Virus record (IMG/VR): IMGVR_UViG_3300021375_000119
Span: 1-28,857 of that record
From: a virus
Reading direction: 5' to 3' (one strand)
DNA length: 28,857 nt
Shown: in pieces, positions 22,494 through 24,418 of the stretch
Position numbering within the stretch: the stretch's first letter is position 1
Layout: every line of letters begins with the position of its first letter
The notes under the pieces: model-generated
Told to the model about the DNA's origin: nothing
What the model saw: only the letters and a program-made list of their open reading frames with translations
Databases searched by the model: none
Position numbers and translations under genes: made by a program

Positions 22494-22540
22494 GTGTAAG
22501 TCCTAGTGGTGAGGTGTAGTGGCCTCACCACGTTTTACAC
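22494..22540 (+). terminator. Long hairpin between the AAA+ and small membrane protein genes
   Basis: An outer stem GTGTAA/TTACAC (22494-22499 with 22535-22540) encloses a GC-rich 9-bp stem GTGGTGAGG/CCTCACCAC (22506-22514 with 22523-22531). No T-run follows. It could be a terminator, attenuator or mRNA-stabilising element. The ribosome site of the next small gene begins directly at its 3' foot. Confidence 0.6.
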
Positions 22541-22680: not shown

Positions 22681-22884
22681 ATGAGTATAACAGTAGAAGT
22701 TAGAGGCGGAAATCTTGAAAAAGCTATGAGAGTGCTAAAGAAAAAAGTACAAAAAGAAGGCATTGTCAAGGAGTTAAGAGCCAAACAATACTATCAAAAG
22801 CCTTCCGAAATCAAAAGAGAGAAGAAAAAAGAGGGTATCAAGAACTTCAAAAAAAAGATGAAGAAACTTGAACAACAAAGATAG
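22681..22884 (+). CDS. rpsU: Ribosomal protein bS21, phage-encoded
   Basis: A 67-aa basic protein with the bS21 pattern: SITVEVRGGNLEKAMRVLKK (residues 2-21), then VKELRAKQYYQKPSEIKREK (residues ~29-48) and a lysine-rich helix KNFKKKMKKLEQQ at the end. Bacterial bS21 (about 70 aa) sits next to the anti-Shine-Dalgarno end of 16S rRNA on the 30S platform and affects start-site choice. Phage bS21 genes are known in marine phages, including those of SAR11. I start at ATG 22681 behind GGAGAGGAGG; the in-frame ATG at 22636 lies inside the membrane peptide gene. Confidence 0.88.
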   Translation: MSITVEVRGGNLEKAMRVLKKKVQKEGIVKELRAKQYYQKPSEIKREKKKEGIKNFKKKMKKLEQQR

Positions 22885-22908
22885 ATTTCCCGCCTGTGCT
22901 TAAATGAT

Positions 22909-22916
22909 GATAAATA
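22909..22916 (+). promoter_or_regulatory. Possible late promoter variant GATAAATA
   Basis: Seven of eight bases match the late consensus, 25 nt after the bS21 stop. A transcript from here would start around 22922, at the beginning of the structured non-coding region. Confidence 0.35.
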
Positions 22917-22920
22917 TGGT

Positions 22921-23254
22921 GAGTAGGCAATTCATAAGACCTACGGCGTGGAGAGGCGGCCAGAGCCTGTTGAAATAAACGAACTGGTTAGAGTTTGGTG
23001 ATTCTCTATAAAAATCACCACCTAATTCGGGTTCATTGGTCTTGAAGGCTATGCTCGCCACGGTTTTGACCGAAGGAGTTAGTATAATGAGGGTGAGACC
23101 TACCTCAACCCAAATGTATTCAGCAGAGCGAGAGTGAACCTGAATAGTGGATTGTTTCAGCATTTGCGCTTAGTTTCGCACCACTTTAAACAAACAAACT
23201 AAAGCTGCGAGTTAATGTTTTGGTAGTTTTAAACTCAAAAAAGAAAAACTACCA
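22921..23254 (+). ncRNA. Structured, GC-elevated non-coding region; candidate phage RNA
   Basis: The 444 nt between bS21 and the ParB-like gene carry no convincing ORF. G+C is about 52, 38, 50, 43 and 37% in successive 60-nt blocks from 22921, against about 25-32% in neighbouring genes. Helices by eye: GTAGG/CCTAC (22923-22944), TGGTGATT/AATCACCA (22996-23020), CGGT/ACCG (23061-23072), GGGTGAG with CTC and ACCC (23091-23111, one bulge), TATTCAG/CTGAATA (23117-23146), AGTGG..TGCG/CGCA..CCACT (23146-23185), and a 10-bp terminator-like hairpin (23221-23254). A late promoter variant is upstream. I could not match it to RNase P, tmRNA, SRP or a known intron core. The strand is assumed from the flanking genes. 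Confidence 0.6.
23221..23254 (+). terminator. Hairpin before the ParB-like gene
   Basis: TGGTAGTTTT (23221-23230) pairs with AAAACTACCA (23245-23254), a perfect 10-bp stem with a 14-nt A-rich loop, followed by TTATAAATA. It ends the structured region, and the late promoter box starts one base after the stem. Confidence 0.6.
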
Positions 23255-23255
23255 T

Positions 23256-23263
23256 TATAAATA
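23256..23263 (+). promoter_or_regulatory. T4-type late promoter box TATAAATA (ParB-like gene)
   Basis: Exact consensus, 65 nt upstream of the start codon, giving a ~60-nt leader. AAAAGGAAAA before the ATG is the ribosome site. Confidence 0.7.
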
Positions 23264-23328
23264 AAAGTAGAAGTTGGCCAATAGGTTACATTTGGTTCCT
23301 GTGTTGACTTCAAGAAAAGGAAAATAAA

Positions 23329-24312
23329 ATGTTAGATATAACAAAACTAACTAGGGTCAAGATAGTTTCCCCTGGTTCTAAATTTAAAGAAACTAAAGTA
23401 ATTTCAATAGATAAAATATATGTTCCTAAAGACTCAACAGGTCAAACTCTTAACAGAGCAAGGAAGAAATATTTAAATCAAGACCACATTAATAAGTTAT
23501 CAGTATCATTACAAAATGGTATAGACTATTCTAAACCGTGTCCGATTGTAATTAAGAATCTACAATGGAGAAACGGAGAAAATTTTGAATATGAACTTAT
23601 TTGTGGTGCTCATAGATATTCAGCTATGACAGCTGCAAATATTAAAGAATGGATATTTGATGTATATGAGATAGGTGTAAATGATGTTGCTAAAGACTTA
23701 GCAGTATCTTCATTACAAATTAGAGAGAATGACCATCAACCTGAACTAGCAAGTACGGCTGATGATTTATCTAATATTGTTTCTTATTTAATTAGTAAAA
23801 AATTAATTAAGAATACCGAGATTGATATTACAGATTACCTAGAAGCAAATGCTAAAAATCTTCATCACACAACCTTTAAAAAGGTTGTATTGGCTACAGT
23901 TAGAAAGAATGGTGCTTATCAAGACATAAGAACATTCCCAGCAGCTGATTTACCAGGTCATATTCAAAAGAATTCTGATTATGAAATTGGTGGTGTGTAT
24001 GATGATAAGAGAAAAAAATTTGGTTGGAGTGTATTAGAAGGATATGAATTTGAATATTTTACTAACGCTTTAAGAAGATTTGATGAAACTGATAAAGGTT
24101 CATATTTTCTTATGCATACAAAAGCTCCTACTGAAAAAAGAAATCTTAAAACAAGAAGAATATCTATGACCAAATCTCTTGAGCAACTTCAAAGAGGTAT
24201 AGAAAAGGCATATGAATATAAACAGAAACACGGTGAATGGCCGTGGTCAGTTGAGGCTTTTCTAGGACAAGATATTAAAAATAAAGAAAATAATTTCTTG
24301 AAAAAGATATAA
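23329..24312 (+). CDS. ParB-like nuclease-fold protein
   Basis: A 327-aa protein with an N-terminal ParB/sulfiredoxin-like domain: ISIDKIYVPKD (residues ~26-36), NQDHINKLSVSLQNG (~50-64), PIVIKNL, and the hallmark ELICGAHRYSAMTAANI (Gly93, His95, Arg96). Residues ~150-230 look like a helical DNA-binding region. The C-terminal third is unassigned and basic. ParB-fold proteins bind DNA and often CTP, or act as nucleases; phage versions have diverse roles. It has its own late promoter and is followed by a long hairpin. Confidence 0.75.
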   Translation: MLDITKLTRVKIVSPGSKFKETKVISIDKIYVPKDSTGQTLNRARKKYLNQDHINKLSVSLQNGIDYSKPCPIVIKNLQWRNGENFEYELICGAHRYSAMTAANIKEWIFDVYEIGVNDVAKDLAVSSLQIRENDHQPELASTADDLSNIVSYLISKKLIKNTEIDITDYLEANAKNLHHTTFKKVVLATVRKNGAYQDIRTFPAADLPGHIQKNSDYEIGGVYDDKRKKFGWSVLEGYEFEYFTNALRRFDETDKGSYFLMHTKAPTEKRNLKTRRISMTKSLEQLQRGIEKAYEYKQKHGEWPWSVEAFLGQDIKNKENNFLKKI

Positions 24313-24319
24313 AAATTTT

Positions 24320-24355
24320 ATATGGGGGTTGTAATTTTAAAAACAATCCCCATAT
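24320..24355 (+). terminator. Long hairpin after the ParB-like gene
   Basis: ATATGGGGGTTGT (24320-24332) pairs with ACAATCCCCATAT (24343-24355), 13 bp with one G-T pair and a 10-nt loop. There is no T-run after it. Its 3' foot overlaps the late promoter box at 24353-24360. Confidence 0.65.
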
Positions 24356-24360
24356 AAATA
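24353..24360 (+). promoter_or_regulatory. T4-type late promoter box TATAAATA (Hsp20 gene)
   Basis: Exact consensus overlapping the foot of the preceding hairpin. The leader to ATG 24419 contains a 6-bp hairpin TGATAC/GTATCA (24365-24387) and an AAGGAG ribosome site. Confidence 0.7.
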
Positions 24361-24418
24361 ACTATGATACGCTCATAAGAGGTATCAAACATTAACTTGC
24401 TTAACAAAGGAGATTAAA

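Follow-up and report, generated by a model that had tools for sequence, protein, structure and literature searches.

A non-coding interval behind a phage bS21 gene

The window, by which we mean the whole 28,857-nt stretch of DNA analysed, is a 28.9-kb virus contig with T4-like late genes. It is part of the genome of a T4-like phage of the Pelagibacter type, which infects SAR11, the most abundant bacteria in the ocean. In it, a phage gene for ribosomal protein bS21 ends at a TAG stop codon (22882-22884) and is followed by 444 nt without a gene (Table 1). The 327-aa gene on the far side has no Pfam match and no PHROG match, and its protein carries a ParB-like GAHR motif, recognised by eye only; in related loci, Hsp20 is often the next gene. 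Other conserved elements lie nearby. Upstream of bS21, a hairpin with an invariant GUAGUG loop and a covarying stem occurs in 51 of 118 loci (about 22505-22530 in the window) and is a candidate bS21 leader element. Hsp20 is itself preceded by a late promoter and then a short conserved hairpin, both in SAR11-type phages (about 24353-24418 in the window) and in cyanophages.

Table 1. Features of the bS21 locus in the window
Feature	Position	Strand	Basis
Phage bS21 gene, 67 aa	22681..22884	+	Pfam PF01165, E 2.2e-16; PHROG 21469 'ribosomal protein S21'
P1 long-range helix, TTTCCCGCC (22886-22894) with GGCGTGGAG (22945-22953)	22886..22953	+	covariation
Late-promoter-like box GATAAATA (T4 late consensus TATAAATA), inside the P1 loop	22909..22916	+	relatives
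P2 hairpin GTAGG-CAATTCATAAGA-CCTAC, conserved loop motif YCRTAAR	22923..22944	+	motif in 128/128 bS21 loci; stem covariation
PKA, H-type pseudoknot AGAG-TTT-GGTGAT-T-CTCT-ATAAAA-ATCACC	22990..23019	+	above-shuffle score
Domain B	23026..23114	+	match to covariance model R1 (1.7e-16; not independent, R1 being built partly from the window itself); covariation
Stem ATTCAG...CTGAAT between domain B and PKC	23118..23145	+	seen directly in the sequence; variants in relatives
PKC, pseudoknot GTGG/CCAC + TTAGTTT/AAACTAA, inner hairpin AGC-ATTTGC-GCT	23147..23205	+	partner swap
PKD, terminal H-type pseudoknot GAGTT / GGTAGTTTT / AAACTC / AAAACTACC	23209..23253	+	partner swap
Unit distinct from the RNA: the next gene's late promoter TATAAATA (23256-23263), then its conserved leader hairpin GAAGTT...GACTTC (23270-23311)	23256..23328	+	alignment with relatives
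Downstream gene, 327 aa, family not assigned	23329..24312	+	ORF

The original prediction placed in this interval a structured non-coding RNA of unknown class, pointing to 444 nt with no coding frame and to a G+C-rich island, and both observations hold. The longest stop-free runs are 41 codons on the plus strand and 89 on the minus strand. Across 102 relatives the longest open runs have medians of 42 (+) and 50 (-), no excess over the 47 and 50.5 of shuffled sequence, and no open frame is kept in relatives on either strand. G+C is 0.430 over 22901-23200 against 0.334 for the whole window, exceeding 98.6% of 300-nt stretches. Rfam 15 gave no match at the gathering threshold anywhere in the window; at E<=10, the best matches in the region had E values of 0.96-9.3, all below gathering scores and none sensible, and ARAGORN found no tRNA or tmRNA gene in the window. 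The fold of the single sequence is modestly better than that of shuffles (z -2.29, 4/100). With a z this weak, the case for RNA structure rests on comparison among relatives.

BLASTN of phage records returned one lengthy match, the cultured SAR11 phage Mosig (78%, 1e-65), which has the same gene order. Loci were gathered by exact-pattern scans of viral contigs and by a scan from the bS21 protein, giving more than 200, a count that includes overlapping records and chance matches. The P2-loop motif YCRTAARNCC lies downstream of bS21 in 128 of 128 distinct phage bS21 loci, many of which were found from the bS21 protein without reference to the RNA. The motif falls within about 100 nt of the bS21 stop in 106 loci and at 350-500 nt, behind an extra ORF of about 105 aa, in 22; from base frequencies, we estimate the chance of meeting it in such a 100-nt stretch at well under 1%. 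With 128/128 loci, the link to bS21 is stronger than originally supposed.

Reduced forms of the RNA are found in cultured phages. HTVC008M has a minimal form with P2, another hairpin that repeats the P2 loop, and PKA. In the methylophage Melnitz, Hsp20 is preceded by a P2-like loop, a stem and an H-type pseudoknot, and no bS21 was detected in this phage by tblastn with the window's bS21. The hypothetical proteins Mosig_00014, Mosig_00015 and Melnitz gene 222 lie inside the RNA (L002:6058-6306; L003:5934-6038) and are probably not genes. The P2 motif is absent from the bS21 loci of PA5oct and SCTP-2. It is also absent upstream of Hsp20 in the cyanophages Syn30, S-RIM44 and P-SSM7 and in one marine single-cell virus, and the RNA upstream of cyanophage Hsp20 was accordingly rejected as a candidate.

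A constant 5' domain followed by exchangeable modules

The 5' domain consists of the long-range helix P1, which encloses an AT-rich box and the P2 hairpin with its 12-nt loop. P1 is 7-9 bp long across relatives, its 5' strand starting just after the bS21 stop codon and its 3' strand following P2. In an alignment of 33 loci, two-sided changes occur at 8 of 9 P1 pairs and at 11 of 14 pairs of P1 and P2 together, where 91.7% of cells are paired compared with 31-55% when the strands are slid. Exchanging partners among 83 distinct P1 pairs lowered the mean score from 19.65 to 15.53 (0/1000 permutations), and 55 different P1 helices are listed among relatives. At helix positions G-U exceeds A-C (113 versus 31 in P1, 151 versus 39 in P1 and P2 combined, 18 versus 0 in domain B), a bias that assigns the RNA to the bS21 (plus) strand. 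Thus 22886-23253 is a structured non-coding RNA of 368 nt on the bS21 strand and a member of a modular family; homologues with covarying helices were found and a coding signal was absent. One might still read the interval as a chance GC-rich spacer or degenerate coding sequence, citing the z of just -2.29 and the 89-codon open run on the minus strand. However, covariation, the strand-specific G-U bias and open runs no longer than those of shuffled sequence all stand against this reading, which comparison with relatives has already refuted and to which we give virtually no weight.

The box had been noticed originally as a late-promoter variant at the start of the region; it is indeed present, but it sits inside the first helix. 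Of 66 distinct relatives in which the RNA directly follows bS21, 64 have a box that departs from TATAAATA by no more than one base (shuffled mean, 2.19 mismatches), at a near-fixed distance before the P2 loop. Where an extra ORF comes after bS21, the box is exactly TATAAATA in 15 of 15 loci. The box resembles the late promoters of T4-like phages and stands at near-fixed spacing 5' of P2, but in most relatives it lies within P1 and is one base off consensus. Because the box is inside P1, a transcript started at the box cannot form P1, which leaves two possibilities, a pair of transcripts or an additional role for the box. In the window, 22909-22944 has the arrangement that marks the family, a P2 with a YCRTAAR loop behind a late-promoter-like box. 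We do not claim that the P2 loop is antisense to 16S rRNA, as the candidate match is short and the R position of the loop varies.

Behind this domain, the window RNA carries three H-type pseudoknots (PKA, PKC and PKD) and the pseudoknot of domain B. An H-type pseudoknot 3' of P2, of which the window, as a family member, has at least one, beats all 12 of its own shuffles in 73 of 99 loci, and was also seen in HTVC008M and Melnitz by inspection. PKA, whose third loop is A-rich, has a mean score of 26.3 against 20.4 for shuffled sequence over 99 loci, with many different S1/S2 pairs. PKC was judged by partner swap, the MAFFT alignment being out of register for S1; random partners did as well in 0/2000 trials for S1, 1/2000 for S2 and 27/2000 for the inner hairpin. 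For PKD, S1 and S2 each gave 0/2000, and this pseudoknot is the probable 3' end of the RNA. The strong hairpin originally noted at the end of the region is real, though it belongs to an H-type pseudoknot.

The modules behind P2 are interchangeable. Where the RNA lies directly behind bS21 and enough sequence is available, domain B and PKC are both missing from 43 loci, PKC alone is present in 11, domain B alone in 8 and both in 40. Past PKD, 23256-23328 is a unit apart from the RNA, comprising a second late promoter and the leader of the next gene; the same unit is found in relatives whose preceding region lacks the window's modules. The original guess of a late RNA of about 330 nt fits, given 368 nt and a box at near-fixed spacing, except that the last 75 nt of the span first reported form this separate unit.

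Domain B in other phage contexts

Domain B measures about 90 nt in the window and 84-130 nt, with up to three hairpins, across relatives. In the window it is built from a closing stem (GGGTT/AACCC), inner hairpins and a hairpin H3 (23089-23106), and GGTC (23038-23041) pairs with GACC in the H3 loop to make a pseudoknot. In relatives this pseudoknot takes the form GGYC with GRCC, and its Y-R pair is, without exception, either T:A (52 distinct sequences) or C:G (15). Two-sided changes occur at 14 of 22 pairs (0/500 shuffles), and 90.7% of cells are paired compared with 33-49% when slid.

The domain also occurs away from bS21. It lies behind an SSB gene (L148) and a lysozyme gene (L103, L247), neighbours whose names come from reading their translations, and directly behind a permuted phage tmRNA (L262:4202-4565), the identity of which does not depend on such reading. 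In another phage type (L249, L251-L259, L264, L266), it closes large GC-rich, RNA-like regions on their 3' side. These regions (L249:780-1420 and similar) are about 500-700 nt long and contain repeated CTGATCCC...GGGATCAG hairpins, with domain B last. The L249 phage contig also carries an Rfam Flavobacterium-1 RNA (RF02976; L249:7588-7705, minus strand). A scan of 84,980 bacterial and archaeal genomes with the domain B core pattern gave 4 chance matches, all rejected by the covariance model. Domain B thus looks like an autonomous module that is phage-specific and mobile. The 3' pseudoknot of the L262 tmRNA has the PKA layout, and its order, tmRNA followed by domain B, parallels that of PKA followed by domain B in the window; this suggests, from one case, that modules are exchanged with an RNA known to act on the ribosome.

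Possible roles of the RNA

Known RNAs resemble this one in part. OLE RNA (RF01071) is a large structured RNA that binds bS21 in a demonstrated complex (PMC12054373). It differs in being about 600 nt long, in occurring in Bacillota and in having the partner proteins OapA-C, whereas the phage RNA is tied to bS21 by genomic linkage alone, and the OLE covariance model had no match in the window region at E<=10. With tmRNA (alpha_tmRNA, RF01849; tmRNA_permuted, RF04321) the window RNA shares several H-type pseudoknots and, in L262, the succession of 3' pseudoknot and domain B. Yet it has neither a tRNA-like end nor a tag reading frame, and the window contains no RF01849 or RF04321 match and no ARAGORN gene. 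GOLLD and ROOL are likewise large, modular, phage-borne non-coding RNAs, but the window RNA is shorter, differs in sequence and architecture, matches neither Rfam model in the window, and has no tRNA genes nearby in the loci checked. The glutamine riboswitch and two-piece tmRNA of Melnitz (PMC9004378) are structured RNAs of a related marine myophage, yet different RNAs. We found no report of the present RNA in the open-access literature, subscription papers and preprints being outside the search. Ornate phage RNAs are known as a genre; what appears new is the present class, as well as its link to a viral ribosomal protein. The novelty applies to the RNA class, and the mechanism remains a proposal.

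The bS21 of HTVC008M enters E. coli ribosomes (PMC6375957), other phages express or transcribe their bS21 late (PMC9723584), and a survey of pelagimyophage genomes took bS21 to need no other viral factor, being in no fixed gene cluster (PMC7029224). We tentatively favour, with somewhat less than even confidence, a late, trans-acting RNA that works with bS21-bearing ribosomes. Late expression is suggested by the late-promoter-like box. The RNA would be made late in two ways: transcription from the box would begin near P2, and read-through out of bS21 would give the transcript that alone can form P1. Phage bS21, also made late, would enter host ribosomes. In a less certain step, the pseudoknot-rich RNA might form a complex with bS21 or with bS21-bearing ribosomes and act in trans, by analogy with OLE RNA binding bS21 or with the pseudoknots of tmRNA travelling through the ribosome. 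The outcome would be to favour phage late translation. A bolder version, which we think rather unlikely, makes the RNA a viral cofactor for a virus-specialised ribosome: the phage would provide bS21 together with an RNA counterpart, rich in pseudoknots and sharing modules with phage tmRNA, and this RNA would join or steer bS21-bearing host ribosomes.

In favour of the trans-acting reading are the covarying helices of P1, P2, domain B, PKC and PKD, the above-shuffle score of PKA, the G-U bias towards the plus strand, the P2 motif behind bS21 in 128 of 128 loci, the order of elements in L262, and the single copy of domain B that R1 finds in the 141-kb Mosig genome. The extra-ORF class with its exact TATAAATA, together with Melnitz, where no bS21 was detected, points to an RNA in its own right and not just a 3' UTR. 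Against this, domain B without bS21 in L148, L103, L262 and the L249 type means that the module is not bS21-specific, P1 cannot belong to the box-started transcript, and no P2 motif accompanies bS21 in PA5oct or SCTP-2. The linkage to bS21 is partly confounded by common descent, and could reflect plain descent in one phage clade. A direct link to the ribosome may exist, but the minimal form in Melnitz and the occurrence of domain B elsewhere weaken the case for it.

The strongest rival is a cis-acting 3' UTR, whose pseudoknots would cap the bS21 mRNA against 3'-to-5' exonucleases and also end transcription. Capping of this kind would explain why modules are interchangeable, and their free swapping, a covarying P1 that starts at the bS21 stop codon, and the presence of domain B behind SSB, lysozyme and a tmRNA as well all agree with it. 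However, in the extra-ORF class the RNA is separated from bS21 and has a TATAAATA to itself, and Melnitz retains the RNA without a detected bS21. Moreover, at most one convincing domain B copy was found per record, where searched, and the loops (YCRTAAR, domain B core) are conserved far beyond the needs of a stability element. On balance we consider this explanation unlikely, if still a serious one. The 128/128 synteny with bS21, a P1 that would form in bS21 read-through RNA only, and the second covarying hairpin upstream of bS21 in 51 of 118 loci could instead indicate autoregulation, with bS21 or another factor binding the RNA in its own mRNA and controlling the output of bS21 or its neighbour, as in a riboswitch or ribosomal-protein feedback. 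Ribosomal-protein leaders, though, are usually found on the 5' side of the gene, the gene that comes next is served by a late promoter of its own, and neither the extreme 3' variability of the RNA nor its presence in Melnitz fits well; we hold this quite improbable.

Domain B or PKC might also be a self-cleaving ribozyme or a processing signal, in which case the whole would be, like GOLLD or ROOL, a structural RNA that is processed or packaged. The compact, highly conserved and pseudoknotted core of domain B, which occurs by itself 3' of various genes and as the last element of large GC-rich RNA-like regions, would suit such a role, but there is no match to any Rfam ribozyme family and no invariant cleavage-like site was identified, making it very unlikely.

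Phage bS21 is common in ocean viruses, and the RNA may help the virus adjust the protein-making machinery of its host late in infection. A conserved non-coding RNA adjoins bS21 at every checked locus of this phage group and is invisible to gene-based surveys. The class is new to Rfam and has up to four pseudoknots, one of them in an autonomous module common to unrelated phages. The cultured phages HTVC008M, Mosig and Melnitz, together with the existing bS21 expression system, make the link between bS21 and the RNA directly testable.
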